Shown here: one piece after another, positions 6,687 to 27,120 of the stretch
Layout: every line of letters starts with the position of its first letter
How positions within the stretch are numbered: the stretch's first letter is position 1
From: Prochlorococcus marinus XMU1410
Lineage (GTDB): Bacteria; Cyanobacteriota; Cyanobacteriia; PCC-6307; Cyanobiaceae
DNA: 64,000 bases
Reading direction: 5' to 3'
Assembly (NCBI RefSeq): GCF_017696085.1
Contig: NZ_JAAORH010000003.1
Coordinates: 248,001 to 312,000 of the forward strand
Notes under the pieces: generated by a model
Database searches by the model: none
What the model was told of the DNA's origin: nothing
Seen by the model: the letters and a program-made list of their open reading frames with translations, nothing else
Program-made: the position numbers and the translations under genes

Positions 6687-6688
6687 CA

Positions 6689-8265: not shown

Positions 8266-8381
8266 TGAATATTTCCCCGCACCTATTAATTGATGCTGTG
8301 ATATTAAGCGCTGCCCTTACGATAACTTTGGTATTAAGAGCAAAAGGTAATGCTGCCAGAAAAGAAAAAGAAAATAAATGA
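8265..8381 (+). CDS. 38-aa membrane microprotein
   Basis: MNISPHLLIDAVILSAALTI then a basic tail NAARKEKENK. One transmembrane helix with the basic end probably cytoplasmic. Start overlaps the upstream stop and its own stop overlaps the next start by four bases. Confidence 0.5.
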   Translation: MNISPHLLIDAVILSAALTITLVLRAKGNAARKEKENK

Positions 8382-10078: not shown

Positions 10079-10079
10079 A

Positions 10080-10940: not shown

Positions 10941-10961
10941 GCTAATTTTTTAAAAAAACTT

Positions 10962-11279
10962 TTAATTACTTAATTTATAATTTGTTTTAACAGTTTTTAT
11001 TATTGAATCTTGTGGTTCTTCACTTGGGAAACAGTTAATAATCCTATATTTGCCTCCTTTTTTATCAGTCTCAACAACTGTAAATTCAACGTATTTACCA
11101 ATTCCATCTCTTAAATCCTTAACTTCAGTATTTATTATCTCTTCTTTATCATTTTCGATGATACGAGATTTACCTCCGCAACTTAACAGAGCGTTCCCCT
11201 CAGTGAGAAAAAAATCTTTGTCATTACTGCAAGAAGATAGGAAAGATAAAGAGACTATTATTAGAATAAAATTTTTCAT
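10962..11279 (-). CDS. lipoprotein
   Basis: 105 aa from MKNFILIIVSLSFLSSCSND; LSSC is a lipobox, so the mature protein probably starts at that cysteine and is membrane-anchored. Two more cysteines (LLSCGG and RIINCFP) might form a disulphide. No family recognised. An ATG two codons upstream is also possible. Confidence 0.65.
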   Translation of the reverse strand: MKNFILIIVSLSFLSSCSNDKDFFLTEGNALLSCGGKSRIIENDKEEIINTEVKDLRDGIGKYVEFTVVETDKKGGKYRIINCFPSEEPQDSIIKTVKTNYKLSN

Positions 11280-11540
11280 AATCAACTTTTTTAGCTAACT
11301 ACATTTTCAATAAATCCTATTAAATATAGTAGTCACAAATTTAAAATACTTTTTAAACTTATTTCAATATTGTCAATAAAAAATGAACCATAAACTTGCC
11401 TTAAAATATTCTCATTTAAACATTGTTAAATAACTATTCGCAAAAATAAAATAAATAACTCTATTGAAAAGACAGCTGACTTAAATACAAAAGTATTTAA
11501 AATATTTAATAACTTAATAAATGATAGAAGAGTTTATTAG

Positions 11541-11657
11541 TTAAAAAGTATTAGATATTTTATTTTTCATATTTTCAATTTTATTGATTAATTCATCTAA
11601 CCATTCAGTATTATTTTGCTCTTGTCTTTTATGGCTTTGACTTTTTTGAGTACTCAT
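11541..11657 (-). CDS. WLDxLIN family microprotein 1
   Basis: 38 aa, starting MSTQKSQSHKRQEQNNTEWL and ending MKNKISNTF. It shares N-T-x-W-L-D-x-L-I-N-x-[IL]-x-x-M/K with genes at 12458-12565 and 22717-22854. Soluble, charged, probably helical. The competing plus-strand ORF at 11616 has poorer composition. Confidence 0.5.
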   Translation of the reverse strand: MSTQKSQSHKRQEQNNTEWLDELINKIENMKNKISNTF

Positions 11658-11879
11658 AAATTTCTTACTTTTATAGTTAATTTAATATATCTTCAGAAAT
11701 TAAAGGAATCAATAAGCAATATTACCAAATCGATTGATAAGACAAGCTTTAGTAGCATTTCATACAAAGCTAACCATAATAGATTAACTAAAAAAATCCA
11801 AATCTCTTCTATTAAGTATTTTCTACGATGTTTTTATTTGAAATTCTGATTTGAATTAGGAAAGGGTATAGATGTTCCT

Positions 11880-11987
11880 ATGGAAAAATCATTTCTAAAT
11901 TTCATTTACTGGATCTTAGTAAAGTCAGCTGAAAGTTACTATGGAGATTCATTAAAAACAGAAGTCCCATATACTCCTTATTTTTAG
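11880..11987 (+). CDS. 35-aa relative of the small-RNA-linked peptide
   Basis: MEKSFLNFIYWILVKSAESY then YGDSLKTEVPYTPYF. It aligns without gaps over about 30 residues with the peptides at 6877 and 25616 (MEK-x-x-x-N-F-x-Y-W, K/R-S-A, Y-G-[ED]-S, E-V-P). Unlike them it has an ATG start, an upstream AGGAAAGGG and no hairpin RNA nearby. Confidence 0.55.
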   Translation: MEKSFLNFIYWILVKSAESYYGDSLKTEVPYTPYF

Positions 11988-12054
11988 TTTTGATGGACGT
12001 TAGCTTTTAATAATAAATCTCTAGTTTGAGATTTATTATTTTGGAATTAATTTA

Positions 12055-12213
12055 TCAAAAAATACAATATGGGTTACCTATAGATTCACTACAAAATAAT
12101 CTCTTACGTTGAATTTCTTTCAATGATTGTGAGTAAAGTTTAGCGGTAAGGATCGTTCCAAAATTAACTAAAACTATAATTAGAAGAAGTAGCTCAATTG
12201 CAAGGTTGGTCAT
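12055..12213 (-). CDS. 52-aa membrane microprotein
   Basis: AAGGAGG is a strong binding site before the ATG. Starts MTNLAIELLLLIIVLVNFGT, one helix, then a charged region and a C-terminus with two cysteines (FCSESIGNPYCIF). The N-terminus resembles the 33-aa protein at 9217, and the tail loosely recalls the Cys-tail family. Confidence 0.55.
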   Translation of the reverse strand: MTNLAIELLLLIIVLVNFGTILTAKLYSQSLKEIQRKRLFCSESIGNPYCIF

Positions 12214-12290
12214 AAGATTACCCTCCTTAAATTTATATAAAAACCTTATAACGGCAGAATAGGTATTGAATAGAGTTTAAATTCATATTT

Positions 12291-12455
12291 TTAGCCATCG
12301 AGATTTTTTGGTATTGGACTAGGTTCATAATTTTCGATGCATTCTTCTAAAAACTGTTCAGAATTACTCTTAATTTCGCAACTATGAAGACAATCATAGA
12401 AGGCATACTTGGGATCTAATTCATTTTTGAATTGTTTATTTCTAAATGTATTCAT
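12291..12455 (-). CDS. 54-aa Cys-containing small protein
   Basis: Starts MNTFRNKQFKNELDPKYAFY and has CLHSC at residues 22-26 plus EECIENYEPSPIP. GGGAG lies before the ATG, two bases after the stop of the upstream gene. Part of a minus-strand microprotein operon (12565 to 12055). Distantly similar to the Cys-tail family. Confidence 0.5.
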   Translation of the reverse strand: MNTFRNKQFKNELDPKYAFYDCLHSCEIKSNSEQFLEECIENYEPSPIPKNLDG

Positions 12456-12457
12456 GA

Positions 12458-12565
12458 TCAAACTCCCTTTGATTTTTTTTCAAGTTGATTAATTAATTTA
12501 TCCAACCAAAGAGTGTTATTGATCTTTTTTGTGTTTTTAAAGTATTTTGATTTGTAAGTACTCAT
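12458..12565 (-). CDS. WLDxLIN family microprotein 2
   Basis: 35 aa: MSTYKSKYFKNTKKINNTLW then LDKLINQLEKKSKGV. It shares the start MST-x-KS and the NTxWLDxLIN core with the gene at 11541. First gene of a three-gene microprotein operon. Confidence 0.55.
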   Translation of the reverse strand: MSTYKSKYFKNTKKINNTLWLDKLINQLEKKSKGV

Positions 12566-12755
12566 GAAGTGAAACCTCCAATCAGTGGATCTAATTTAAA
12601 GGTGATGATTCAAATTTCCTAGAGCAAAAATACTGATTATGAATTTAGTGAAATATTTTAAAAACGATTAATTTATTGTTTGTATTTTAGGTATTAAAAC
12701 TTTTGATTCTTGTATATTATTAATATTAAATAACTTCTAAAAAAGGGAGTTAATT

Positions 12756-12926
12756 ATGACTTACTTAAATCTAATTAAAAATAAAATTCAACATGCATTT
12801 GGTGTTTTGTTTGATACGTTATCAATTGAGATAAAACTAACTGATGCTCAAATGGAATGTATACAATTCGGTATTTGTGATTATGCTCCAAAACAAGTTG
12901 AGAAGGTTCCCTTTTTTCATTATTAA
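12756..12926 (+). CDS. 56-aa small protein
   Basis: Starts MTYLNLIKNKIQHAFGVLFD and has MECIQFGICDYAPKQ near the C-terminus. GGGAG precedes the ATG at normal spacing. The C-x5-C pair recalls the Cys-tail proteins. Function unknown. Confidence 0.5.
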   Translation: MTYLNLIKNKIQHAFGVLFDTLSIEIKLTDAQMECIQFGICDYAPKQVEKVPFFHY

Positions 12927-12952
12927 TTTCAATTCATTTTAAAGGAAAGCAT

Positions 12953-13261
12953 TTAGCTCCTCCTCACCCAATCAGGAGATCCACTAAACCAATCAGCAAG
13001 ATCATCATTTTTGGGATCGAAATGATTTTCAGTTTCTAAACCATCAAGGCCAAGATTCTGGATAAGTCCATTTATTCCATCTGATTTTTGCTTACCATAT
13101 CTCCTTAAGCTATTAGCTTTCTTAAGCCATGTCCATATAGTTGAATTATGTTTTGCAAACTTTTCTACATAAATTCTTTCTTCCAATGCGACAGCTTCAT
13201 CTAGTGAAATCCTTTTTACGATATCCTTAATTTTTAAACGAGTCTTGTTGGTTAGGAACAT
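12953..13261 (-). CDS. hypothetical protein, 102 aa
   Basis: Starts MFLTNKTRLKIKDIVKRISL; the first half is helical and basic, the second acidic, ending DWFSGSPDWVRRS. Soluble. The regular composition suggests a real gene, probably conserved in picocyanobacteria, but I recognise no domain. Confidence 0.6.
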   Translation of the reverse strand: MFLTNKTRLKIKDIVKRISLDEAVALEERIYVEKFAKHNSTIWTWLKKANSLRRYGKQKSDGINGLIQNLGLDGLETENHFDPKNDDLADWFSGSPDWVRRS

Positions 13262-13577
13262 ATTTATAAAAGAAGTTAATGATTTATAAAAGTTTTTTTT
13301 ATGAATGTCTTGTCAATCTTTATTTCAAGAAAAAGGATTTTTTAGAGGCTTTTCAAGGGCAAATATATTTGTTTAATAACAGGTATCTTTAATTGGTAAA
13401 AAAGACTACTTAATTTGATTTATATAACTTATATAAAACGATTTCAATATAAGTTTCTCTTCATAATTTAAGATTTAATTTATAAAATTGAATAAAGAAA
13501 ATTTACATTAGCAATCGATCTAAACTAAGAGGAAAATAACCCTCTTTTTCTGGCAAAAACTTTTTATGTAATCACAA
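13262..13577. other. intergenic region with cassette T3
   Basis: No ORF is supported. It contains cassette T3 (13513-13550): ATCGATC, TAAACT (13521-13526), AGAGG/CCTCT (13528-13532 with 13541-13545) and a T-run. The next ATG is at 13578, 28 bp further on, a larger gap than in the other copies. Confidence 0.5.
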
Positions 13578-14294
13578 ATGAAAGGTCAATGGACAAACGT
13601 TTATAGTGGTGATTTACCTCTTAGATCTTGGTGGGTAGATACAGATAGTGAGTGTGAATATATATCTATAGTTTTACCAGAGGTGTTTGGGATAAATCGC
13701 TGGATAAGGAGTTTTTCTGAAAAATTAGCCAAACAAAATGTACCTGTATTAGCCTTACCTCTTTACGGTAGAACAGCTCCAAAATTAGATTTAGCATACA
13801 GCGCAGAAGACTTAAAATTAGGCAGGCATCATAAAAATTTAACCACTTCAAAAAATATTATTAAAGATATTTCTGCAGCTCTGAATTGGGTTAAAGAAAA
13901 ATATCCAAAAAAGAAAATCTCAATAGTTGGATTTTGTTTTGGGGGTCATGCAGCAGTTATAGCTTCTTCTTTAAAAGGAATAGATAGTACATTTTGTTTT
14001 TATGGGGCAGGGGTAACTGCGCCAAGAAAGGATACTAATTTTGCACCTATTGATTTACTAGAAAAAGTTTCTGGAAAATTAAACTTCATATGTGGTTCTT
14101 CAGATGATTTAATTCCTGTACAAGATAGATTAGAAATTAAAAAAAGATTTAAAAAACTAGATCCGTTAGAAGAAAGATTTATTTATGTCGAAATTAAAGG
14201 AGCTGATCATGGCTTTATGTGCGAGGGAAGAGAATCCTTCCATAAGGATGCATCATTAATTGGTTGGAATTTATTGATGAAAGAATTAAATTAA
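13578..14294 (+). CDS. dienelactone hydrolase family protein
   Basis: 238 aa alpha/beta hydrolase. GFCFGGHAA (about residues 117-125) holds the nucleophilic cysteine in the G-x-C-x-G elbow typical of dienelactone hydrolases rather than a serine. The acid Asp is probably in SSDDLIPV and the catalytic His is in GADHGFMCEGRESFH near the C-terminus. The family opens lactone rings or similar esters; the substrate here is unknown. Stand-alone gene behind cassette T3. Confidence 0.88.
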   Translation: MKGQWTNVYSGDLPLRSWWVDTDSECEYISIVLPEVFGINRWIRSFSEKLAKQNVPVLALPLYGRTAPKLDLAYSAEDLKLGRHHKNLTTSKNIIKDISAALNWVKEKYPKKKISIVGFCFGGHAAVIASSLKGIDSTFCFYGAGVTAPRKDTNFAPIDLLEKVSGKLNFICGSSDDLIPVQDRLEIKKRFKKLDPLEERFIYVEIKGADHGFMCEGRESFHKDASLIGWNLLMKELN

Positions 14295-14480
14295 TAAAAT
14301 TCTTGAGAATAGATTATTGTAAGCTTCTGCACTAATAATTTATAAAAATTCAATCCCTCTATGGAAAACTTTTTAAAAAATCGTTTTAGATTAAATAACT
14401 TGAAAAGTCAAATGAAATACTGCCAAAAATGAAAAAAATAAATACTATAAGCCTAAATAATTTTCTAGAAATTCAACCCA

Positions 14481-14909
14481 ATGATTAAGAATTTATTCAT
14501 AGCATTTGTTTTTGCATTAATGCTCATCAACCCAAGCATTTCTATAGCTGCTAAATCTCCTGTAGATGTACAAGAAGTCTTTGTAGGATCTGAGACTATG
14601 GATGGAGACGCTCTGAAATACCCAAAAGGAAAAGCAGAAATAAGATTACAAAGAGTCGAGTTGGCTGAAGGAGGAATAGTTCCACTCCACTCTCATCCAA
14701 TTCCATTATTAGGCAATGTTGAGCAAGGTACGATAGTTGTCAAAAGACAAGGGATGGAAGATCTTACCTATACAGCAGGGGATACTTTTATAGTTGGTCC
14801 AAAGACACCAAAACATACAATGGGCAATGCAAAAACTGATAACGCAATAGTTTGGTTCGCAGCAATAGGAGCAAAAGATGTTCCAATTTTAATTCCCGCT
14901 GAAGGATAA
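14481..14909 (+). CDS. exported cupin-domain protein
   Basis: 142 aa. Residues 1-24 form a signal peptide ending at SIAA. The mature part has a small cupin barrel: VPLHSHPIPLLGNVEQGTIV carries two metal-ligand histidines and the downstream glutamate, and FIVGPKTPKHTMGN gives the second motif with another histidine. Probably periplasmic; ligand or reaction unknown. The gene is followed by cassette T4. Confidence 0.8.
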   Translation: MIKNLFIAFVFALMLINPSISIAAKSPVDVQEVFVGSETMDGDALKYPKGKAEIRLQRVELAEGGIVPLHSHPIPLLGNVEQGTIVVKRQGMEDLTYTAGDTFIVGPKTPKHTMGNAKTDNAIVWFAAIGAKDVPILIPAEG

Positions 14910-14934
14910 ATTTTATCCTTAAATCAATTTTTTT

Positions 14935-14980
14935 GATCGATATTCAAACTAAAATGAGGAGCAGTTAGCTCCTTTTTTTT
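14935..14980 (+). promoter_or_regulatory. promoter-hairpin cassette, copy T4
   Basis: GATCGATATTCAAACT, then GGAGC/GCTCC (14958-14962 with 14968-14972), a run of eight T and the ATG at 14981. Confidence 0.5.
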
Positions 14981-15289
14981 ATGACTGCTCAAAATTTTAT
15001 GAATGTTGTTCGATTTAAATTAAAGTCAGATTGTATAGATCAGTATTTTGAAGTAATAGATAAAACAAGTTTTGAGGGGATGACTCAAAGATATATCGCA
15101 AAAACTGGAGATTATGATTACTGTTTTGTTGGGATCTGGAAAAATGCAGAAGCTATTGCAGCCCAAAGACCAGCTATGATTGCTCATCTTGATGAGGTTA
15201 GAGGATTTATGGAAGAGTTATCTCCTGAACTTGGAGTTACCGATCCCGTTTCAGGAAATATTGTTTCTAAAGTTGGTTATCATGATTGA
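14981..15289 (+). CDS. dimeric alpha-beta barrel (ABM-like) protein
   Basis: 102 aa. The start MTAQNFMNVVRFKLKSDCID and the GDYDYCFVGIWKNAEA segment fit a ferredoxin-like ABM/EthD-type barrel, in which small proteins dimerise to bind or oxidise hydrophobic or haem-like ligands. No catalytic residues can be named. The stop codon lies inside cassette T5, which precedes the next gene. Confidence 0.6.
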   Translation: MTAQNFMNVVRFKLKSDCIDQYFEVIDKTSFEGMTQRYIAKTGDYDYCFVGIWKNAEAIAAQRPAMIAHLDEVRGFMEELSPELGVTDPVSGNIVSKVGYHD

Positions 15290-15332
15290 CAGTCGATCTA
15301 AACTAAGGGGGAATTAGCTCCTTTTTTGTAGT
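15285..15332 (+). promoter_or_regulatory. promoter-hairpin cassette, copy T5
   Basis: TGATTGACAGTCGATC, TAAACT (15299-15304), an AAGGGG/CTCCTT stem with one G-U pair, a T-run and ATG at 15333. Its first three bases are the stop codon of the upstream gene. Confidence 0.5.
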
Positions 15333-15728
15333 ATGCAGTTAAAAAATATTTTAAAAACTACTGGGAGTCTTCATATCCTATTGGGATTATTAATTATTTT
15401 CCTACTTATTTTTTCTGTGGAAACTATCGCAGGCAACGCTTCAAGAGAAACATTGCTTCTTGTAAGAGGGACTGCAGATGTTGTAGCAGCTAGTAATTTA
15501 GGGATAGGTTTCCTATTGATTATTTGCAGCTCTATCAAAGATCAGAAATCTTTAAAAAAAGTTTTATCAGGTGAACTAGCTTTAATGGCTTGTTTATTAG
15601 TAGTAGCCTTATTCAATACTTTTAATGCTGGAACAATTGTTGATGGAGGACCTCCACCTCCTTTTTGGGTTGTTTTAATAGTGAATCCTATATTATGTAC
15701 TTATGGATTAGTTAAAAGGAAAAACTGA
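15333..15728 (+). CDS. four-helix membrane protein
   Basis: 131 aa with four predicted helices and a proline-rich loop (GGPPPPFWVV) before the last. No family recognised. Its end abuts the first fragment of the repeated EVE-gene start, so it marks the left edge of the segmented island. Confidence 0.6.
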   Translation: MQLKNILKTTGSLHILLGLLIIFLLIFSVETIAGNASRETLLLVRGTADVVAASNLGIGFLLIICSSIKDQKSLKKVLSGELALMACLLVVALFNTFNAGTIVDGGPPPPFWVVLIVNPILCTYGLVKRKN

Positions 15729-15780
15729 CTGATATGAATGACGTTAATTACTGCCTAATGAACAATGTGCCAGTATTTAT
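15729..15780 (+). repeat. EVE-gene start fragment, site A
   Basis: ACTGATATGAATGACGTTAA and the following bases to TGAACAATGTGCCAG match the first codons of the gene at 30189 (ATG at 15735). It differs from site B by a few bases and lacks the upstream 11-bp repeats because the 15333 gene lies there. The frame runs on to a stop at about 15870 with no similarity. Confidence 0.6.
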
Positions 15781-15837
15781 AGCAGGGGCTTTCAAAAATC
15801 AAATATATTACGTCCACACCTCGTCCATACTTTTCAC

Positions 15838-15881
15838 CATTGACAATCGATCTACAATAAGGGGTAATTAGCTCCTTTTTT
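15838..15881 (+). promoter_or_regulatory. promoter-hairpin cassette, copy T6 (orphan)
   Basis: ATTGACAATCGATC, TACAAT, AAGGGG/CTCCTT and a T-run, but no plus-strand gene follows; it abuts the 3' end of the DsrE gene. Confidence 0.5.
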
Positions 15882-16257
15882 AATAGCAAAGTACGCTATC
15901 CGCTTTAATTGATTCTTCAACTAGAACATCTGGCATAACAAACTCTGCAGTGTATCCATCGAGAAGCTTCTCATCGTAACCCCTAGATTTAGCAGACATT
16001 CCTGAGACATATATAGTAATTTTTGAATTCTTTAAATTTTGAAGATGTTCGTATAAATCTCCAGTACCTTGACCAACTATTTCACCAGCTTTTTTGCAAT
16101 TTAATATTTGTACTCCGTCTCCTGCTAGAAAAAGTGTTACTTTATGATCGTTTTTTTCTGCAGTAAGGGCAACCAATAAACCTAAAGTTATTTTATTTTT
16201 GGATTCTAAACCGCTGTAAATATGTACTAACACTTTATTATCGGTAATGATAGACAT
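15880..16257 (-). CDS. DsrE/DsrF-like family protein
   Basis: 125 aa. The N-terminus KVLVHIYSGLESKNKITLGLL and the segment HKVTLFLAGDGVQIL have the beta-alpha pattern of DsrE-like proteins, and the C-terminal IYVSGMSAKSRGY fits the position of the family's conserved cysteine loop but without a cysteine there. DsrE homologues act in sulfur relay or bind small ligands. Soluble; stand-alone. Confidence 0.75.
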   Translation of the reverse strand: MSIITDNKVLVHIYSGLESKNKITLGLLVALTAEKNDHKVTLFLAGDGVQILNCKKAGEIVGQGTGDLYEHLQNLKNSKITIYVSGMSAKSRGYDEKLLDGYTAEFVMPDVLVEESIKADSVLCY

Positions 16258-16555
16258 TTAATTCTCCCTAAATTTTGTTTTTATATCTTAAATAAAATCT
16301 ATTTTCATTAGCTGTTTTTTTATGAAATGCTTACTACTTGAACCTCTTGCTTATTGGCAGATGACTATTAAGTATTAAAAATAGCTCCTAAATATAGAAG
16401 TCTTCTTCCAACCTTTTTCCATAAATAATTGCGAATACTAGATTTATACACCTCGATTTTTTGCCAATTTTCTTGCTTTTTCCTTATTTTTTCGTAAGTA
16501 TGCCTATATAGGCTCTAATTTGCTCTAAAAAACTGTCACATGGGGGTTTACGATT
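16258..16555. other. upstream region of 16556 gene
   Basis: No gene is supported over about 300 bp. GGGGGTTTACG just before the ATG at 16556 could include the ribosome binding site. Confidence 0.35.
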
Positions 16556-16825
16556 ATGGAAATTCCAGACGAAATGTTGAAAGAAATTAGAGAAAGTGGA
16601 TACGATCAAGAGCTTGTATATTACAACATAAGAGAACTATTAAACAGCGATAAACAAATTAATGAGAATAACAATCTAGAGCTTATAGACAATTACTTAT
16701 TAGACAAAGATCTACAAGAACCCGCTGCTGAGATACAGATGGCAGCAGAGCTTATAGACAATTTCTTATTAGATAAAAGATTTATGAGAGAGCTTGAAGA
16801 TGATAAAGACTATGATGCTGCTTAA
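16556..16825 (+). CDS. small acidic protein with an internal repeat
   Basis: 89 aa. The motif ELIDN-[YF]-LLDK occurs twice (about residues 43-52 and 66-75), with 23 residues between starts, so a helical unit has been duplicated. Very acidic and soluble. Function unknown. Confidence 0.55.
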   Translation: MEIPDEMLKEIRESGYDQELVYYNIRELLNSDKQINENNNLELIDNYLLDKDLQEPAAEIQMAAELIDNFLLDKRFMRELEDDKDYDAA

Positions 16826-16896
16826 TTAGATAAAGTACCTATTTTTTCCTATTTATTTAAAGGTTATTCTTTTGAGCAAATAACAGGATTAAAACA

Positions 16897-17019
16897 ATGA
16901 TGAAACTTGCAATCATTTTTTTACCAATTTTATTTGCAGTTATTTGGGCTGCTTTTATAGGTTTAAGAATAAATAAAGTAGAAACTAGAGATGGAAAAAG
17001 AAAATTAATTAATTACTAA
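16897..17019 (+). CDS. 40-aa membrane microprotein
   Basis: AGGA precedes ATGATG. MMKLAIIFLPILFAVIWAAF is one helix followed by a basic tail RDGKRKLINY. The helix resembles small photosystem subunits such as PsbY in style (P-I-L-x-A-x-x-W-A) but the match is too short to name it. Cassette T7 follows. Confidence 0.5.
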   Translation: MMKLAIIFLPILFAVIWAAFIGLRINKVETRDGKRKLINY

Positions 17020-17020
17020 T

Positions 17021-17065
17021 TGATTGACAGTCGATCTAACATAGAGGGATAAAACCCTCTTTTTT
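17021..17065 (+). promoter_or_regulatory. promoter-hairpin cassette, copy T7
   Basis: TGATTGACAGTCGATC, TAACAT, AGAGGG/CCCTCT, six T and the ATG at 17066 with no bases between. Confidence 0.55.
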
Positions 17066-17326
17066 ATGAATACCTTAATAGTTTCTACTTTTAATTGTTC
17101 TTTTGAAGATTTTGATAAATTTGTAGCCGATTTCCATGAAAAGGAGGGACATCGATATGTTGAAGAATATGAACTCATCAAGGTAAATGAACATAAAAGT
17201 CACTTGATACTTAAAGTCAAAGATTTAGAAGGATTTGCTGCTGCTACAAGTACTCCAGAGATGAAAGATTGGGATAAAAAAAATGGCTATAAAGATATTT
17301 GCTATTCACTAACTCCAGTTGAATAA
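17066..17326 (+). CDS. hypothetical protein, 86 aa
   Basis: Starts MNTLIVSTFNCSFEDFDKFV; alternating strand-helix pattern with LILKVKDLEGFAAATSTPEM suggests a small ferredoxin-like fold, similar to DUF3764-type cyanobacterial proteins, without certainty. Its TAA overlaps the next gene's ATG (TAATG). Confidence 0.6.
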   Translation: MNTLIVSTFNCSFEDFDKFVADFHEKEGHRYVEEYELIKVNEHKSHLILKVKDLEGFAAATSTPEMKDWDKKNGYKDICYSLTPVE

Positions 17327-17517
17327 TGAGTTCTAAATGGGATGACACTTCTTGGCAGAAAGACTTCTTGAACATGAAGTCACACTCACCCTCAGATGCA
17401 AAACTCCTAATGGGAGGTGTTAAAGGATTTAAAGATGCTTGGCGTTTAGGTGTACTACACGTTGAATACGAAAAGCTGAAGAGCAAGCAAATGCAACAAG
17501 ATCAACAGCAACAATAG
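17326..17517 (+). CDS. small hypothetical protein
   Basis: 63 aa, starting MSSKWDDTSWQKDFLNMKSH and ending in a glutamine-rich tail. Translationally coupled to the upstream gene. A hairpin CCTCT/AGAGG lies right after the stop. Confidence 0.55.
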   Translation: MSSKWDDTSWQKDFLNMKSHSPSDAKLLMGGVKGFKDAWRLGVLHVEYEKLKSKQMQQDQQQQ

Positions 17518-17518
17518 C

Positions 17519-17535
17519 CTCTATAAAAAGAGGTA
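17519..17535 (+). terminator. short hairpin after 17517
   Basis: CCTCTATAAAAAGAGG forms a 5-bp stem; the T-run after it is weak. Confidence 0.35.
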
Positions 17536-17745
17536 AAGAGTCTACTTTTTACTTTTTTAAAAAAGACCCTTTGTTTTTAAGAGACCTATATCTTTATGTA
17601 AATCTACGATTATTCGGTAATGATAATCATCTTAAAAGCACACTAATCAATCCCTATGAGGACTTATGGAAATAATGATAAGTTTCATACCTTTGAGAAT
17701 TTTCAGACTATACAATAGGATAAATAACTATTATCAAGACTTTTG

Positions 17746-19365
17746 ATGTCAATAGATATCAAAGAAAATAAATCATCTTCAAAAAGTCGATATCGTCCAG
17801 AGATTGATGGTCTAAGAGCATTTGCCGTAGTCGCTGTCATTATAAATCACTTCAACAAAGTTATCTTGCCAGGTGGATACCTTGGAGTAGATATCTTTTT
17901 TGTTATCTCAGGATTTGTAATAACATCATCTCTATATCAAAGACCGAGTAAAAACTTCAAGGATTTCATCAGTGGATTTTATGAACGCAGAATCAAGAGA
18001 TTAGTACCAGCACTATCAGTTTTTGTTCTGATAATGAGTATTGCGATTTGCTTATTCAATCCAAATCCAAGTTTGTTTCTGAGAACTGGTATTACATCTT
18101 TATTTGGGTTATCAAATATATACCTCTTCAAAAAGTCAACAGATTATTTTGCTCAATCAACAGAACTCAATGTATTTACTCACACTTGGTCTCTTGGAGT
18201 GGAAGAGCAGTTCTATATCCTGTTCCCATTTCTAATTTGGTTCTCTGGATTTGGAAGGCAGACAAAAAATGGTGTTCGCAATTTATTTCTCATAATTGGA
18301 ACACTAGCGATTACATCTTTGATTGGATTTATCTATCTCTATCCAATCAATCAACCAGCAGCATATTTCCTTATGCCAACAAGGTTTTGGGAAATGGCAT
18401 CGGGATGTTTGCTATTTATTGGATTACAGAAGTGGAAATCAATTAAACAGTTTTTAGAAAAATTCCCACCACTTTTTGTGATGATATTGATTATCGGGAT
18501 AATGTATTTACCGACAGCATTAGCAACAACATCCACAGTTTTAGTAGTGGTTCTTTCTTTGGTTCTCATCGCTTGTTTGAAAAAAGGAACAGCATCATAT
18601 GCATTTTTCACTAATTCTAAAGTCGTCTATATAGGTCTCATTTCTTATTCTTTATACCTATGGCATTGGGGTGTTCTTGCGATTAGTCGTTGGACTATTG
18701 GAGTTCATTGGTGGTCAGTACCCTTCCAAGTGGCACTAATGCTTGGTCTTGCAATTTGTTCTTATAGATATATCGAAACACAACTTCGCAAAGGTAATTG
18801 GTTTGGGAAAAGATGGAAGAACCTTGCAATTGGAGGAGGAGCAATAATTACACTTTCAGGAGGTCTTAGTGCACTTGATATCCCTCTAAAAGGTCAACTA
18901 TACATTGGCAAAAAGATAAATCATACAATACCAAATTTTCTAAGAGGTGATGAATGTCTTGAAAATATGTCAGAAAGTACTAAATGTTATTTGATTGAAA
19001 ATATTAGCAAACAAACTCTATGGATACTAGGCGATAGTCAGACACAATTTCTTGCTCTAGCAGGAGAAAAAGTGGCAAATTCTCTTGAAATGAATTTGAA
19101 ATTATATTCAATATTATCAACTCCTTTCCCCTCGTTTAATCATTATAGAAAATCTAAAATACTAAAAAATGTGGAAAATCTTGATGATCTTGAATTTTTA
19201 GAAAGAGAACTTTATAAGAAAATAAAAGTTGGCGATATAATTCTACTAACATTGCGAAATCCCTATCATTTCGGTGGAGAGTACTATAAAAGTTCAGATT
19301 CCTTTATCAGAAAAGATGGGACTAGGACTTCACATGAGGATTATTTCAATGCATGGATTTCATAA
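17746..19365 (+). CDS. acyltransferase-3 (OafA-like) protein, truncated by a stop
   Basis: From ATG 17746 (a TTG one codon earlier is less likely) to an in-frame TAA at 19363-19365, about 539 aa. The N-terminus has RYRPEIDGLRAFAVVAVIIN, the acyltransferase-3 signature with its catalytic histidine in the next residues, and about ten membrane helices follow to residue 385. The soluble C-terminal part opens with WILGDSQTQFLALAG, the block I motif of an SGNH domain. OafA-type proteins move acyl groups to cell-surface glycans. The SGNH domain is cut before its C-terminal D-x-x-H. Confidence 0.85.
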   Translation: MSIDIKENKSSSKSRYRPEIDGLRAFAVVAVIINHFNKVILPGGYLGVDIFFVISGFVITSSLYQRPSKNFKDFISGFYERRIKRLVPALSVFVLIMSIAICLFNPNPSLFLRTGITSLFGLSNIYLFKKSTDYFAQSTELNVFTHTWSLGVEEQFYILFPFLIWFSGFGRQTKNGVRNLFLIIGTLAITSLIGFIYLYPINQPAAYFLMPTRFWEMASGCLLFIGLQKWKSIKQFLEKFPPLFVMILIIGIMYLPTALATTSTVLVVVLSLVLIACLKKGTASYAFFTNSKVVYIGLISYSLYLWHWGVLAISRWTIGVHWWSVPFQVALMLGLAICSYRYIETQLRKGNWFGKRWKNLAIGGGAIITLSGGLSALDIPLKGQLYIGKKINHTIPNFLRGDECLENMSESTKCYLIENISKQTLWILGDSQTQFLALAGEKVANSLEMNLKLYSILSTPFPSFNHYRKSKILKNVENLDDLEFLERELYKKIKVGDIILLTLRNPYHFGGEYYKSSDSFIRKDGTRTSHEDYFNAWIS

Positions 19366-19785
19366 GTAGCAAATCTTGCCAGTTTTGCAGAAAAAAAAGG
19401 TGCAAAAGTTATAATTCAAACTCCTACTCCTGAATGGGATCAATGGTATGAGGAAAAGAATAAAATTTGTTCAAGAACAAAAATTCAATGGTTCAATAAA
19501 ATACAAAAAGGCGACTGCCAAATCATTAGTGCATATTTTATTGATAAAAAAAAAGGTGTTTACAAACATCAATTTGAGAAATTGAATAAACTATCCACCT
19601 CTCATCCGAATATATATCTTTTTGATACCTATAAAATTACATGTCCCAAAATAACATGTAATTACTCAATGGACGGTATTGATATTTATGCAGATAGTGC
19701 ACATCTCTCATACAGGTGGGCAAGAGATTTTCTCGCACCTGAAATTTCTAAATTCATTAATGAAATACAAACTATGGATAAGTGA
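19366..19785 (+). pseudogene. remainder of the SGNH domain after the stop
   Basis: The same frame continues without another stop for 139 codons and contains FAEKKGAKVIIQTPTPEWDQ and the expected SGNH block V, DSAHLSYRWA, near the end. Joining both parts gives about 680 residues, a normal length for OafA-SGNH fusions. A single point change would restore the gene, so the inactivation is recent, or the base is a sequencing error. Confidence 0.75.
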
Positions 19786-20061
19786 AATTCCCGAATCTCT
19801 TTGAAAAAACCATAGAACCCTAAAAAAGTAGAACAGGCAGAAATAAAACAAAAGATACTATAAACCTACAAAACTTTGAAAACGCCCTTGAGATAGCAAT
19901 CAAATAAAAAAATTACCCAGTAAAAATAAGCCGTTAATTTCCAAAAAAAATATCATAAATCCCTCTTGGGGTTTACATATACGCATGGCGAGGGAGCTGA
20001 CCCCGTGCCACCCCTCGGAAACTCAGGGAGGGAAATAAAAAACAATTAATACCCAATAAAA
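19786..20061. other. gene-free region with GC-rich patch
   Basis: At 19975-20030 a GC-rich patch (ACATATACGCATGGCGAGGG and on, with CCCCGTGCCACCCCTC) resembles 24355-24395 in its CATATACG and GTGCCACCC parts. It may be a worn relative of the sequence upstream of site C. Confidence 0.4.
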
Positions 20062-20253
20062 ATGGACAGAACACAACAGATAAGAGACGCTCATCCGTGG
20101 CTCAGCTACGACGAAGCAGTCAAGGTTCTTCTCTATCATCATCAGGGTTCGATGTGGGTAGAGAACCTAGAAAGCAACGAGCTTGAGAGGTCGATGGAAG
20201 CGTTTACAAAGCTCGTTAAATCTAAGAGAATGAAAGCCCTAGAAGCCTTTTAG
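20062..20253 (+). CDS. small hypothetical protein
   Basis: 63 aa, starting MDRTQQIRDAHPWLSYDEAV. Codon use is more GC-rich than the surroundings. The segment RSMEAFTKLVKSKRMKALEA is basic and helical. Possibly acquired from a phage or other element; no family recognised. Confidence 0.5.
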   Translation: MDRTQQIRDAHPWLSYDEAVKVLLYHHQGSMWVENLESNELERSMEAFTKLVKSKRMKALEAF

Positions 20254-20267
20254 AGTACGTTCTAGGC

Positions 20268-20381
20268 ATGTATTACAACGGTGTAGATAAGTATGGGAAT
20301 CAGATAGAAGAATCAAGTAGAGAGGAGTCTTTCGAGCGAAGATGGAATAGAGCAAGATCTATCCTTTTAAAGAGCAAATAA
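20268..20381 (+). CDS. 37-aa charged peptide
   Basis: MYYNGVDKYGNQIEESSREE then SFERRWNRARSILLKSK. Same strand as the 20062 gene, 14 bp further. Coding is plausible. Confidence 0.4.
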   Translation: MYYNGVDKYGNQIEESSREESFERRWNRARSILLKSK

Positions 20382-20386
20382 ACTTG

Positions 20387-20434
20387 TTGACTCTTACCCT
20401 TTTCAGTTGCTATAAATATTAGTACACTTGTACT
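20387..20434 (+). promoter_or_regulatory. promoter with LexA (SOS) box
   Basis: TTGACT (20387-20392), 18-nt spacer and TATAAA (20411-20416) form a strong promoter. AGTACACTTGTACT (20421-20434) sits on the expected start of transcription and matches the cyanobacterial SOS-box pattern RGTAC-N3-DGTWC-B. The ATG at 20443 is only about 20 nt from the expected start. Confidence 0.65.
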
Positions 20435-20442
20435 ATATAGCT

Positions 20443-20670
20443 ATGGAGGACTGGCAGGAATGGGATTATCTAGAGGACGAAATATTAGTAAGAAAACGAC
20501 GGAAGATTTGTATTACTTGCAATCACTTCAGGTACAGCACGACAAGTTCTTGTGTCACCATCCTTACTTGTCCGTTTCATCAAAAGCTTATTCCTCAAGG
20601 TGATCATCTAATTAAGGGATGTAGAAACTGGAGAGAGAACAGCAGAATATTTGCTCCAGAAGCAGCTTAA
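20443..20670 (+). CDS. Cys-rich small protein under a LexA box
   Basis: 75 aa from MEDWQEWDYLEDEILVRKRR; an upstream TTG in frame (20428) lies within the operator and is unlikely. CITCNHFRY, then CVTILTCPFHQ and GCRNW place five cysteines and two histidines in a zinc-finger-like pattern. With the SOS box this is a candidate DNA-damage-response protein. Exact role unknown. Confidence 0.65.
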   Translation: MEDWQEWDYLEDEILVRKRRKICITCNHFRYSTTSSCVTILTCPFHQKLIPQGDHLIKGCRNWRENSRIFAPEAA

Positions 20671-21110
20671 GCATTAAGTACGTAATTCTTAAGAGAGAGT
20701 ATGAAACCTAGTAATAGCCTTAATTTATAACCACTATGTGAACAGATAATTAATTATGTGTGAACACTAAGGTAAAGAATCAAGATATAACTAGGATTTT
20801 TTAGCTCAAAATAAATAAAGAAAAAAGATCTGTATCCAGCGATCTGTTTCTATGTTTTTTATACGGTAAATTAGATTAAATAAATCGATGATTTGAACGG
20901 CTGCAGAGAAGATCCAATACTCACTCTGTTCACACATTGTTCACACATTATAACTTTCTTATAACTGACTGATATGACTGAAGTTAATTACTGGCTAATG
21001 AACCATGTACCAGCTTGATATAACTAGGTTTTTTGAAATATATAAAGTTTTATTCTAGCAAAACTAGTAAATATAAAACATCCATTGAGGTAAAGATTTA
21101 GGATAATTTG
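20671..21110. other. intergenic region with inverted and direct repeats
   Basis: About 440 bp without a functional gene. TGTGAACA occurs at about 20740 and 20766, GATATAACTAGG(A)TTTTTT occurs at about 20786 and 21017, and site B lies at 20928-21017. Confidence 0.45.
20928..21017 (+). repeat. EVE-gene start fragment, site B
   Basis: Two perfect 11-bp repeats GTTCACACATT (20928-20938 and 20939-20949), a 24-bp gap, then ATG at 20974 with a fragment reading MTEVNYWLMNHVPA and a stop. The gap and repeats match site E, where the intact gene starts. Confidence 0.65.
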
Positions 21111-21159
21111 TGATTGACAGTCGATCTAAACTTAGAGGGATAAAACCCTCTTTTTTTTG
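21111..21159 (+). promoter_or_regulatory. promoter-hairpin cassette, copy T8
   Basis: TGATTGACAGTCGATC, TAAACT (21127-21132), AGAGGG/CCCTCT, eight T, then ATG at 21160. The most complete copy. Confidence 0.55.
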
Positions 21160-21333
21160 ATGAGAAACAAATTTAAAAGATCAGCTTTTTTTGATATGTC
21201 TGATGACCTTTTCTATCGAATATCATTAATAGGATTTTTAGTTGTTTTTAGCTCAATGGTATTTTTCCTAACGAAATATAGAGAAAAAAAAGTTAATAAT
21301 ATAAGCCAGATTTCCATGACTGAACAAATTTAA
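21160..21333 (+). CDS. 57-aa membrane protein
   Basis: Starts MRNKFKRSAFFDMSDDLFYR; one helix (about residues 21-40) then a basic stretch YREKKVNN. Starts right after cassette T8. Unknown function. Confidence 0.5.
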   Translation: MRNKFKRSAFFDMSDDLFYRISLIGFLVVFSSMVFFLTKYREKKVNNISQISMTEQI

Positions 21334-21347
21334 TTTTTAAAGCAGTA

Positions 21348-21704
21348 ATGCAAAGATTTATAATTTCACCGTTATTTGCTTTATCTAGGTTTTTTATAAA
21401 TATTTACGGAATATTTTTGAAGTTTTTTCTTCAATTAAATGGTGGTTATTGGTCAAGAATTGGTTTAGCCGAAAATATTACAGAGGAAAGAATTTAAAAA
21501 AGAAGATTTTATATCCTGCCTTTTTATATTCTTCTAGCTTTATTGTTTGGATTACTATCTGCTCTATATTGGTATTTTGTTATTCTTCATGTGCCACTTT
21601 CAATAGAAAAATATTTAAGTCCATTTAATAACAATATTGCTTTAATAATTGCTTTTGCTACTTTCTTTGGTTGGCTTTATATTCTTTGTAAAACAAACAA
21701 ATAA
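21348..21704 (+). pseudogene. membrane protein interrupted by an in-frame TAA
   Basis: ATG at 21348 opens a frame with a TAA at 21495-21497, after which the frame stays open and hydrophobic until the TAA at 21702-21704. Before the stop it reads MQRFIISPLFALSRFFINIY and on to ENITEERI; after it KRRFYILPFYILLALLFGLL and further helices. Together 118 residues with about three helices. Either a broken gene or two adjacent peptides. Confidence 0.5.
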
Positions 21705-21739
21705 AATGCTTACTGAGAGATGATGTGGTCCGCGGATTA

Positions 21740-22119
21740 AAGATTTAATTAATCATGATTAAATCATTCTTAAGGATTCATGCAAAATATTTATGACCGA
21801 TTAATTTGAATTTACGACAGTTCTGGTGATCGACTCGACCAAGGTTGACCAACTAGATCTTCACTAATCCATGGTCTGCAACACCAAGGTAAATTAACTT
21901 ATCTAACCTTTACGGTAAGAAAGTTAAGTGATCAGAAATTAATCTTTCGGGATTAATTCTGAACTATCTTAAAAATAAAGTCGTTTGTAAAGCATGAAGA
22001 AGTGAGTAATCACTTTTACATTCAAAACTAATTTCTAAGAAAATTCTTAATCTGATTATTAAATAGATCTCCTTTCTGTCGTCACCATTTAAAAAAGACC
22101 TGTAAAAGGGTCTTTTTTT
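21740..22119 (+). ncRNA. candidate structured RNA with terminator
   Basis: No ORF fits, but several stems do: GATTTAAT/ATTAAATC (21742-21765), TTAACTT/AAGTTAA (about 21896-21926), a 12-bp stem with one bulge closed by UUUCG (21933-21961), AGTGA/TCACT (22001-22014) and a final terminator (22091-22119). The middle (21815-21890) is GC-richer than the surroundings. I could not match it to tmRNA, RNase P, SRP or 6S RNA. Confidence 0.5.
22091..22119 (+). terminator. Rho-independent terminator
   Basis: AAAAAAGACC, TGTAAAA loop, GGGTCTTTTTTT; a strong stem with T-run on the plus strand. Confidence 0.65.
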
Positions 22120-22170
22120 ATGTCTTAAATTTTATTTATTTACTGTTAATCCACAAATAATTAAATATTT

Positions 22171-22302
22171 TTATCTCGCTCTTTCGCGATCAGTTAATGC
22201 TTTTTCAAAAGTAAAAAAGAAAGTACAAATGCTATTCAATGCAACCAACAAAAGAACTACTGATCTTCCATGTTGATTTAATTGAAGTGATCTTTGAGTC
22301 AT
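22171..22302 (-). CDS. 43-aa membrane microprotein
   Basis: MTQRSLQLNQHGRSVVLLLV, one helix, then FEKALTDRERAR. Five bases downstream of the 22307 gene on the same strand, so probably one operon. Confidence 0.5.
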   Translation of the reverse strand: MTQRSLQLNQHGRSVVLLLVALNSICTFFFTFEKALTDRERAR

Positions 22303-22306
22303 ACTT

Positions 22307-22489
22307 TTAATAATCTTCATTGTAATCGGATGGACTACCAGTTAAAGAACAAACAACTGATTCCTCTTTTTTCATTTCTTTTATTTCCATTATTGGTCTG
22401 CCCATTTTCTTAAGAACATCTATATCTTCTTTAGTCTGACAGCGTGCAATTATATTTCCTTTTTGATCAAAGCAACTGTAGTAAGTCAT
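22307..22489 (-). CDS. small hypothetical protein
   Basis: 60 aa, starting MTYYSCFDQKGNIIARCQTK; a short beta-hairpin-like start followed by a charged helix (EDIDVLKKMGRPIMEIKEMK). The mRNA probably begins with the hairpin at 22514-22559. Confidence 0.55.
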   Translation of the reverse strand: MTYYSCFDQKGNIIARCQTKEDIDVLKKMGRPIMEIKEMKKEESVVCSLTGSPSDYNEDY

Positions 22490-22513
22490 TTTATTAAATG
22501 CAATTTAAAGTTC

Positions 22514-22559
22514 ATGGTTGATTTCAGTTGCAGCAACGCAACCGACTCATAACAACCAT
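22514..22559 (-). ncRNA. nested 5' hairpin, copy X
   Basis: On the minus strand ATGGTTG pairs with CAACCAT and an inner CGGTTGC pairs with GCAACTG (one G-U). The inverted copy at 26638-26683 keeps both stems with different bases. Here it forms the likely 5' end of the 22489 transcript. Confidence 0.5.
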
Positions 22560-22613
22560 ATTTCTAATTTAGGTCAGCCATAGATTTAAATGGCTAAAAA
22601 AACATACCTCTTT

Positions 22614-22645
22614 CCGTACCTAAATGTTCCTCAAACCGCACACAT
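22614..22645 (+). promoter_or_regulatory. shared promoter element S2
   Basis: CCGTACCTAAATGTTCCTC then AAACCGCACACAT, followed by TTAGAT as a possible -10 box. Lies 70 bp before the gene at 22717. Confidence 0.5.
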
Positions 22646-22716
22646 TAGATACGCAGTGTTTTAGTCAAATCAATTAGAACAAAGAGGTAGTTAAACGAAT
22701 ATACAAAGGAGAATTT

Positions 22717-22854
22717 ATGAGTGGAGATTTTGAGACTCTTGAAATTAATCAACCAAAAATTAAATATTTAAAACCAGAAGATAATACAAAATGGTTAGAC
22801 AAATTAATTAATAATATTAAGGACATGAAGAGGAAGATATCAAAAGATTCTTAG
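22717..22854 (+). CDS. WLDxLIN family microprotein 3
   Basis: 45 aa: MSGDFETLEINQPKIKYLKP, then NTKWLDKLINNIKDMKRKIS. AAAGGAG precedes the ATG. Longest member of the family. Confidence 0.55.
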   Translation: MSGDFETLEINQPKIKYLKPEDNTKWLDKLINNIKDMKRKISKDS

Positions 22855-22988
22855 AAATTTAAGAAAGAAACTTTTTTATTTGACCTTTAGTTTGAATGAA
22901 AAGAAATTCAAAAAAGAATTTAAATTTTGTATTTAAGGTAACCGCTTTTTTGTGAGCATTATTCAGAATAAGAGTCCGACTATTTTTT

Positions 22989-23132
22989 ATGCAAAAAAAT
23001 TTAGATGAAAATTCTTATGAAAAAAGAATTGAAAATATAGAAAAAGGAAAATCTTATTTAAAAAATAATGGATTTTTCAAATCAAAATCTAATCTTTTCG
23101 AAGACATACAAAGATTTATCTATAAAAGGTAA
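22989..23132 (+). CDS. 47-aa charged peptide
   Basis: MQKNLDENSYEKRIENIEKG and a C-terminal FEDIQRFIYKR; soluble and helical. Function unknown. Confidence 0.4.
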   Translation: MQKNLDENSYEKRIENIEKGKSYLKNNGFFKSKSNLFEDIQRFIYKR

Positions 23133-23250
23133 TTTAAAAAATATTTTTTACTTTTGATTAATTAAATCTCTCCATAAGCAAGCCATCACATAAAAGAAAG
23201 AAAGACTTGAAAAGGTAAAGAGAAAAAAAGAATGGGTCAATTTTCTATAA

Positions 23251-23355
23251 CTAAATTAGACCAAATAATCCTGCAGTAAAACCAACAGCCGAAAAGAATG
23301 TGAACTCAATCAAATCTCTTGGGGCAGAGTTCATAAATAAACCAATTTGAGTCAT
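23251..23355 (-). CDS. 34-aa hydrophobic microprotein
   Basis: MTQIGLFMNSAPRDLIEFTF then FSAVGFTAGLFGLI, one helix. Five bases after the 23360 gene on the same strand. Confidence 0.5.
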   Translation of the reverse strand: MTQIGLFMNSAPRDLIEFTFFSAVGFTAGLFGLI

Positions 23356-23359
23356 GATT

Positions 23360-23554
23360 TTATGACTTGAGAGAATCTTTTAAATCAAACTTTTCAGCTT
23401 TTTCAATTTGACACTCAGTATCATCTTCAGCACATTTGATTTCAGCTTTTTTGTTCATGTGGCTACTACAACCGCCTGCTATAACTGGTAAACCGGTCGT
23501 AGCCGTAAAACCAGTTAAACATGCAAAAGCTATATAAGGAAAAAGTCTTTTCAT
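23360..23554 (-). CDS. small exported Cys-containing protein
   Basis: 64 aa. The first 26 residues are a signal peptide (MKRLFPYIAFACLTGFTATT and on). AGGCSS at residues 26-31 could be a lipobox-like site, and CAEDDTEC gives two more cysteines. Probably periplasmic or lipid-anchored. Confidence 0.6.
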   Translation of the reverse strand: MKRLFPYIAFACLTGFTATTGLPVIAGGCSSHMNKKAEIKCAEDDTECQIEKAEKFDLKDSLKS

Positions 23555-23755
23555 TTAATTGTTACTTTATGTAAATTTATTATGTTACATAAAAAGCTCA
23601 AGTGTGAGTAGCTGATAATTCGCGTGCACCCTATACCAATCATCTAAAGTGATTTAGCAAACCTATGAGTTTTATATTTATCTGAGTATTTTTACTTATA
23701 TGTTGAGTTGAAGACTTTAAATAATTAATGTTTGTTTTGGGTTTATATATAAGTC

Positions 23756-23911
23756 ATGGATAAAGAACATTTAATTGATTTAATATCTAGCAGCATTATT
23801 TCTGAGATTAAAGATCTCGAAATTAATGAGGAACAATTGATTGCAAATAATTATTTAAATAATCTGAATTTAAATCAGCTTAGAATAATTTCTAAAGAAT
23901 TTATTTTGTAA
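23756..23911 (+). CDS. 51-aa acidic peptide
   Basis: MDKEHLIDLISSSIISEIKD and a leucine/asparagine-rich second half (NNYLNNLNLNQLRIISKEF). Soluble, helical. Confidence 0.45.
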   Translation: MDKEHLIDLISSSIISEIKDLEINEEQLIANNYLNNLNLNQLRIISKEFIL

Positions 23912-23993
23912 TTTTTATTGAATATTTATTTAAATAAATGAGATTTTCTTTACTATCATTTGAATTTTAATAAGTTAATACCTTTTAATTAAT

Positions 23994-24179
23994 ATGAATG
24001 ATTCAGAAGAATTTAAACCTAGCCTTAAACAAATAAATGAGGATATCAGACCTACATGGGAAGATATCAAAAAACAATCAGAAGTTTTAGTTAACAAACT
24101 TGGTTGCCCTAGATCATTTGTAGGAGGGATGCTTCATGCAATAGCAAGCGACTTCTCTGATATGAAAACTTGGGAATAA
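23994..24179 (+). CDS. small hypothetical protein
   Basis: 61 aa, starting MNDSEEFKPSLKQINEDIRP and including GCPRSFVGGMLHAIASDF. The next ATG follows its TAA with no gap. Confidence 0.5.
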   Translation: MNDSEEFKPSLKQINEDIRPTWEDIKKQSEVLVNKLGCPRSFVGGMLHAIASDFSDMKTWE

Positions 24180-24865: not shown

Positions 24866-24947
24866 ATATTCATAACAAGTTTAGGTAACTTGATTCACTA
24901 GCCAAAAACTAATGAAAAGGAAGGTAAATTATTTAATAAATTTCTGC

Positions 24948-25256
24948 TTATAATTCTGGCTTCTCTTCTTCAAATGGCTTCTCTTCTTCAACTGGCTTCT
25001 CTTCTTCAAATGGCTTCTCTTCTTCAACTGGCTTCTCTTCTTCAACTGGCTTCTCTTCTTCAACTGGCTTCTCTTCTTCAACTGGTTTCTCTTCTTCAAC
25101 TGGCTTCTCTTCTTCAACTGGTTTCTCTTCTTCAACTGGCATCTCTTCTTCAACTGGTTTCTCTTCTTCTTCAGAAAATCTTCTTTTTAAAAATTCAGAA
25201 ATTTTTTGGAAAAGATCCTTTAGGAATTCAAAAATTTTATACAGAATGTTTTTCAT
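24948..25256 (-). CDS. membrane-surface protein with 12 VEEEKP repeats
   Basis: 102 aa. Residues 1-27 (MKNILYKIFEFLKDLFQKIS and on) form an amphipathic helix likely to bind a membrane. Residues 29-100 are twelve six-residue units, mostly VEEEKP with variants EEEEKP, VEEEMP and FEEEKP, encoded by 18-bp tandem repeats at 24957-25172. Such arrays change length by slippage. Function unknown; the tail is an extended acidic rod. Confidence 0.65.
   Translation of the reverse strand: MKNILYKIFEFLKDLFQKISEFLKRRFSEEEEKPVEEEMPVEEEKPVEEEKPVEEEKPVEEEKPVEEEKPVEEEKPVEEEKPFEEEKPVEEEKPFEEEKPEL
24957..25172 (-). repeat. 18-bp tandem repeat array
   Basis: Twelve in-frame copies of an 18-bp unit; differences lie mainly in V/F and one K/M codon. 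Confidence 0.85.
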
Positions 25257-26039: not shown

Positions 26040-26265
26040 AATATTTAATAGATATGAGATTTTATTTATCTCAAGTAACTAGATCCTCTATAAGTAAGCT
26101 TTATTGTTTTCTCTTCTTGGCTCTTGCAATATACGAAAGATTTGCCGTTAAAATACATGTTTACCATTATGCAGCTCCTGGTCTTGATCAAGTCCCCGTC
26201 CTATGGCTTGATTCGTACTGCGGTCTATCTAATAGTAGATCGGACGATTTGGTAGCATTTACTAC
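26040..26265 (-). ncRNA. duplicated structured RNA with a 33-codon ORF, copy 2
   Basis: Matches copy 1 (5940-6182) along its length, including a leader stem ATCAAG/CTTGAT where copy 1 has CTCAAG/CTTGAG, and an identical loop core CCATAGGACGGGGA. The plus-strand ORF that also covers this stretch is interrupted in copy 1 and is not supported. Confidence 0.65.
26066..26167 (-). CDS. 33-aa peptide of the duplicated RNA, copy 2
   Basis: Begins MVNMYFNGKSFVYCKSQEEK and ends TYRGSSYLR; AGGAG lies 7 nt before the ATG. The first 14 residues are identical to copy 1. Confidence 0.7.
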   Translation of the reverse strand: MVNMYFNGKSFVYCKSQEEKTIKLTYRGSSYLR

Positions 26266-27090: not shown

Positions 27091-27120
27091 TCATCTACAA
27101 AGCAATTTTCCCAAATAAGA

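Follow-up and report, generated by a model that had tools for sequence, protein, structure and literature searches.

The window analyzed here, a 64,000-nt stretch of Prochlorococcus DNA, carries an acyltransferase gene whose reading frame is interrupted by one stop codon (Table 1). An ATG at 17746 opens an ORF on the plus strand (17746-19365) that runs for 539 codons to a TAA at 19363-19365. Behind this stop, the same frame stays open for 139 codons, from 19366 to a TGA at 19783-19785. The piece before the stop matched the AT3 profile PF01757 (Acyl_transf_3) over profile positions 2-323 of 326 (E 8.5e-25), scoring 87.9 bits against a gathering cutoff of 31. The tail behind the stop matched PF19040, the profile for SGNH domains fused to AT3 (positions 135-240 of 248, E 1.7e-8), with 34.9 bits against a cutoff of 27, and the pre-stop piece alone gave no PF19040 match at E 0.1. 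The GDS motif of block I lies 5' of the TAA and the DSAH motif of block V (DxxH) lies 3' of it, both coded in one frame. These results bear out the sequence-only reading, which had proposed an O-acyltransferase of the AT3-SGNH kind, a single TAA between blocks I and V, and 139 open codons downstream. The single uninterrupted ORF of an AT3-SGNH acyltransferase is missing here, owing to that TAA. From its domain matches, the gene thus appears to be a broken member of the fused AT3-SGNH acyltransferase family, and we did not file it as a working one; the architecture looks ordinary, with the copy broken by one codon. An RIKR motif, taken from PMC9558356, was found in FYERRIKRLVPAL.

Table 1. Coordinates in the window of the interrupted gene and the stretches around it
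Feature	Position	Strand	Description
Truncated ORF	17746..19365	+	AT3 domain (about residues 1-385), linker, and first SGNH part with GDS block
In-frame TAA	19363..19365	+	Sense codon at this column in 7/7 same-head relatives
Rest of SGNH domain	19366..19785	+	139 open codons plus TGA; block V (DSAH) and 4/6 invariant cysteines
Junction zone (124 bases)	18820..18943	+	DNA similarity to 19/19 other-head loci ends; continues to 5/6 same-head loci
Upstream stretch	17570..17745		Directly before AT3 in some relatives: 77% to L050, 84% over 111 bases to L054
Downstream stretch	19812..19926		All or part 78-91% like DNA behind other-head genes (types 3, 4, and 6) and one same-head gene
Strain-variable segment, ~3.6 kb	17538..21110		Missing in 3/6 relatives with flanks compared; borders vary by relative

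We considered whether 17538-17674 could be the truncated C terminus of another upstream gene and rejected this. Similar DNA immediately precedes AT3 in two relatives (L050 and L054), where the frame contains stops, so this stretch is more likely the leader of the gene itself. A promoter scan gave 9 candidates versus 12.1 in shuffled sequence, i.e., no excess, and the terminator-like sites, 3 versus 1.6 in shuffled sequence, all lie on the minus strand. No tRNA genes were found in the 64,000-nt window. Elsewhere in the window, there are two Glutamine-II riboswitch aptamers on the minus strand (26187-26249 and 6104-6166; 59 and 58.4 bits). There is also an 18-nt repeat array at 24902-25205, which codes for EEEKPV units in the minus-strand ORF 24948-25256, and a set of 102-nt-spaced repeats at 27108-27384 that code for a 34-residue unit in ORF 27121-27384.

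The layout of the gene resembles that of OafA and OafB, the O-antigen acetyltransferases of Salmonella, in which AT3 is followed by a periplasmic SGNH domain with the Ser in block I and the Asp and His in block V, and in which the head likewise contains cysteine pairs (PMC7448272). Unlike in OafA and OafB, the head in the window is cut by the stop before the Asp and His. The closest layouts are those of AT3-SGNH genes of picocyanobacteria, mostly Prochlorococcus (e.g., L049, L050, and L051), which have the same order of domains and are 76-84% identical in AT3 and 45-60% in the head; unlike the window gene, these relatives have an open frame. We also modeled the fold of the read-through head from an input of 7 sequences (mean pLDDT 68.7, pTM 0.76). 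The model had nine PDB matches at E <= 0.001, with PatB peptidoglycan O-acetyltransferases on top and sugar acetylesterases, including rhamnogalacturonan acetylesterase, among them; TM-scores of the nine best matches were 0.32-0.45 on the query. PatB, an SGNH protein, was 13-16% identical to the head. It is a separate protein working with the MBOAT protein PatA (PMC12148441), whereas the head in the window is fused to AT3. When solved chains were searched by sequence, the AT3 part had no match up to E 1 and the head had none better than E 0.28.

In order to place the stop in the history of the gene, we compared it with relatives carrying the same type of head: six with open frames (L049, L050, L051, L032, L034, and L052, the last with one undetermined AT3 residue) and a frame-broken copy from genome G033 (L035). 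All six open-frame relatives aligned through the stop without a frame shift, and all seven, the G033 copy included, have a sense codon at the stop column. Behind the stop, the window gene changes 2 of 40 otherwise invariant columns, none of them radically, compared with 0-6 of 38-44 for the other seven rows; two inserted columns in this stretch are unique to it. In the AT3 part it changes 5 of 205 invariant columns (6-16 of 206-216 in the other rows). For the SGNH part before the stop, its count of 5 changed columns of 31 is the highest among the eight rows (0-4 of 26-30 in the others). The residue right after GDS, a His in six same-head relatives, is altered in the window; a Gln after GDS also occurs in one other protein of a 49-protein set described below. 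By these counts, the post-stop stretch appears free of visible decay. Since it is constrained like that of the relatives and all seven of them have a sense codon, the stop is either recent or a base error. The alignment therefore supports the reading of the nonsense change as a recent loss, or else a base error, as had been proposed from the window's sequence along with the conserved character of the tail.

We then searched 266 genomes of the genus, one per species. The head of the window gene was matched in 18 of them, seven strongly (E 1.7e-99 or better), with its own genome included in both counts. Among the matches that cover the stop site, a stop was reported only in the window's own. At this gene, however, the head matches include no close sister, with a best AT3 identity of 84%. 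Stops inside an AT3 match were found in four other genomes (G033, G077, G212, and G068), with a further fragment in G181. The G033 copy is split by a frame shift near query residues 169-174, where its identity to the window drops from 86 to 60%, as though a recombination joint in this same-head gene (L079, 10001-12027) had slipped out of frame. The G068 copy is only about 30% identical to the window. As this copy is distant and many of the genomes are fragmented, the disrupted matches are a list and not a rate. Broken AT3 copies nevertheless appear not to be unique to the window.

Aligned heads share an invariant Ser52, Asp271, and His274 and six invariant cysteines (25, 35, 196, 212, 254, and 259). 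The stop falls at position 161 of this alignment. Of these residues, the truncated product retains the Ser and two cysteines; the Asp, the His, and the other four cysteines are lost. In Salmonella OafA, substitutions in the triad reduced the signal to 0.36% (S412A), 10% (D587A), and 0.87% (H590A) (PMC7448272). Because the truncated head is without the catalytic Asp and His that OafA requires, the allele is most likely null, a loss of function that we infer by analogy with the Salmonella enzyme.

Two other accounts of the stop were weighed against a recent null allele. If the TAA is a base error of the assembly, the gene is intact, and a lone in-frame stop in an unshifted frame, followed by a stretch as constrained as in the relatives, is what such an error would leave. 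We consider this unlikely. The genome (1.63 Mb) is assembled in 4 contigs at 99.99% completeness, and by eye, housekeeping ORFs in the window's right half look full length. The head is also altered immediately after GDS and has the highest pre-stop count of changed invariant columns. In addition, the internal stops in the AT3 matches of the four other genomes mean that broken copies are not unheard of. It is also conceivable that the locus still yields a working protein, with the shortened product acting as an AT3-only transferase, the stop being read through, or the tail being translated alone. The entire AT3 domain precedes the stop and AT3-only transferases are on record (PMC9558356), so a shortened protein need not be dead. 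However, the SGNH head of fused enzymes is thought to make the final transfer (PMC9558356, PMC7448272) and its triad is required, while what remains here is roughly half of the head, including two of the six invariant cysteines. As for a separately translated tail, the first in-frame start of a usual type behind the stop is a TTG at 19582, which leaves only 67 codons. We regard continued function in any of these forms as very improbable.

While comparing the gene with its relatives, we found that the two halves of the protein behave differently. In a first alignment with 46 relatives (the first 46 of 97 proteins), 23 had an AT3 identity to the window above 0.72 (rounded, 0.72-0.84). Six of these 23 carry the head type of the window, with an SGNH identity of 0.45-0.60 and an AT3 identity of 0.76-0.84, and the other 17 carry other heads, with an SGNH identity of 0.15-0.24. 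Within this group, mean pairwise identity is 0.92 at residues 301-325, declines via 0.72 and 0.55 to 0.35 at residues 376-400, and stays at 0.19-0.35 from there on. We saw the same step at the DNA level across 25 loci (19 other-head and 6 same-head), some of which are duplicates of each other across two collections. Similarity to every other-head locus ends within the junction zone, while in five of the same-head loci it reaches 19760-19926; in the sixth, L052, it stops at 18901, with a later short match. Behind the gene, similarity returns in several other-head loci (e.g., 91% over 115 bases in L059 and 85% in L055). Part of 19812-19926 also occurs upstream of some AT3-SGNH genes. As a small gene, this stretch was rejected, since no common frame was evident by eye.

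For head and tree counts, the protein set was thinned from 90 to 48 by removing near duplicates. ORFs cut by an end of the retrieved sequence, shorter than 570 codons, missing the AT3 start, or below 45% AT3 identity were left out, and the broken G033 copy with them. Clustered at 40% identity over 150 residues, 49 proteins fell into 21 head types. We focused on a core of 27 closely related AT3-SGNH proteins with an AT3 identity to the window of 0.715 or more, which have 8 head types. Their 351 pairs comprise 64 of the same type, with a head identity of about 0.45 or more, and 287 of different types, with at most 0.26. Head identity in the core is bimodal, with no pair between 0.30 and 0.40; this gap belongs to the pairs themselves, although 40% was also the threshold that defined the types. 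Mean AT3 identity was 0.754 for same-head and different-head pairs alike, and 939 of 2,000 label permutations reached a difference this high. In an earlier set of 24 proteins, AT3 and head identity were weakly and positively correlated (Spearman 0.13, 276 pairs). Given the equal AT3 means in the two classes, the AT3 body appears to say little about which head is attached to it.

One contig holds two such heads next to each other. L056 (Prochlorococcus sp. AG-418-M08) has two tandem AT3-SGNH genes at 9852-13443 with 230 bases between them. The copies match over 1,265 columns, all differences lie within 9856-9882, and 9883-11112 (1,230 bases) is identical, a span made up of 118 leader bases and 370 codons from the start of the gene. 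Beyond this shared AT3 body the heads differ, with 20% identity. It looks as if the AT3 body had recently been duplicated or gene-converted, leaving it joined to two heads. By its name, L056 is apparently one amplified single cell, so that a chimera of amplification or assembly is possible.

These patterns could arise with no exchange at all if the SGNH half simply evolved much faster than AT3. Same-head relatives are indeed also lower in SGNH (0.45-0.60) than in AT3 (0.76-0.84), and trees of the AT3 part leave room for this account. A single origin on the AT3 tree was not rejected for T1 (p 0.165) or T3 (p 0.766), and T4 formed one clade on a starred branch in the tree of the core of 27, with none of 500 shuffles as low. 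For T0, a single origin was rejected with the second L056 copy (p 1.7e-42) and was not rejected without it (p 0.238). The tree of all 49 proteins has some clustering by head type (17 changes versus a shuffled mean of 21.0, 0 of 200 as low), and the core of 27 showed none overall (12 changes versus 13.1, 55 of 200 as low). The AT3 tree is poorly resolved, which makes its evidence weaker than the pair statistics. Thus, we do not take the tree tests as proof of exchange; beyond the L056 tandem pair, the trees leave exchange unsettled. What speaks against a fast-evolving head is the bimodal head identity with its empty middle, in classes unlinked to AT3 identity. Similarity also ends within the same 124 bases in all 19 other-head loci and resumes behind the gene in some, and a tandem pair shares an identical AT3 body. 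We therefore think faster evolution of the head alone to be quite unlikely and favor heads that can be exchanged. For head exchange in AT3-SGNH proteins or AT3 cassettes of Prochlorococcus, we found nothing in the titles and abstract openings of the papers listed by our literature searches. Modular head exchange would be the part for which we found no earlier description, whereas the broken member itself belongs to a known family.

The gene lies in a segment that varies between strains. We compared the flanks in six relatives, using 14000-24000 of the window as the query, and three relatives lack the segment. In L159 (genome G164), the match to 17023-17539 is followed by 21088-24000 with a 9-base overlap; in L154 (G099), the matches to 14000-17537 and 21111-24000 are separated by 541 bases; and in L158 (G068), a single base separates 15839-17317 from 20974-23644. 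A piece of ~3.6 kb with the AT3-SGNH gene and small ORFs is thus strain variable. Counting the window's own, 53 of the 266 genus genomes have an AT3 relative (E <= 0.001); among the 87 genomes with completeness of 90% or more and contamination of 5% or less, the count is 25. Among the best 80 of 318 matches in a protein search, the closest relatives on named contigs are mostly from Prochlorococcus single-cell genomes. Two relatives lie on contigs binned elsewhere: L052 as Rhodopirellula (75% AT3), which may be a binning error, and L061 as Cyanobium (79% AT3), which may be a gene transfer.

A 51-nt element occurs in six copies (67-100% alike) between small genes at 13499-21155 of the window. 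Judged by eye, it resembles an intrinsic terminator whose lead is conserved. The variable segment is bordered by copies at 17015 and 21105, and L154 has its right junction at 21111; these elements could therefore act as recombination sites. A 48-bp island repeat is known from strain MED4.

Phage origin of the gene was considered, and we do not favor it. A blastn search of 50,697 phage records found nothing at E 1e-5, and AT3 genes in IMG/VR are only distant (six loci at 28-37% identity). One IMG/VR contig, L128, has two AT3-type genes side by side (5308-8296; 32-34% to the window). Selection of gene loss by phage, which the sequence-only reading had also raised, would be plausible by analogy with other bacteria only, namely, Sf6 O-acetylation in Shigella (PMC9558356). 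That exchange of heads serves escape from phage would be a guess.

Taken together, we think it probable that the gene encodes an AT3-SGNH O-acyltransferase, that the allele in the window is a recent nonsense null, and that it belongs to a cassette family with a conserved AT3 body and exchangeable heads. In this model, an acyl group would cross the inner membrane by way of the AT3 part, and the SGNH head in the periplasm would place it on a surface or envelope sugar, presumably the acceptor. A recent nonsense substitution would then cut the head before the catalytic Asp and His, with a presumed effect on the cell surface. The cassettes would sit in variable regions of Prochlorococcus genomes, and homologous recombination within the AT3 body and downstream of the gene is probably the route by which their SGNH heads are exchanged. 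Acceptor specificity of OafA and OafB is constrained by the region adjoining the head (PMC7448272), so an exchanged head could alter which sugar is acylated. A fuller version, which we advance tentatively, has the AT3 part as a chassis whose heads are swapped by homologous recombination, both at the AT3/SGNH junction and downstream of the gene. The acylated sugar, and perhaps phage receptors with it, would change while the membrane part is kept; tandem copies would be steps of exchange and nonsense alleles an off state.

Taken alone, the stop would be an unremarkable loss. What surrounds it suggests simple means by which very abundant photosynthetic cells could vary their surface chemistry, with one conserved transporter part and many exchangeable transferase heads. 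Such a natural panel of heads on one body may also offer a test of what sets acceptor specificity in AT3-SGNH enzymes.
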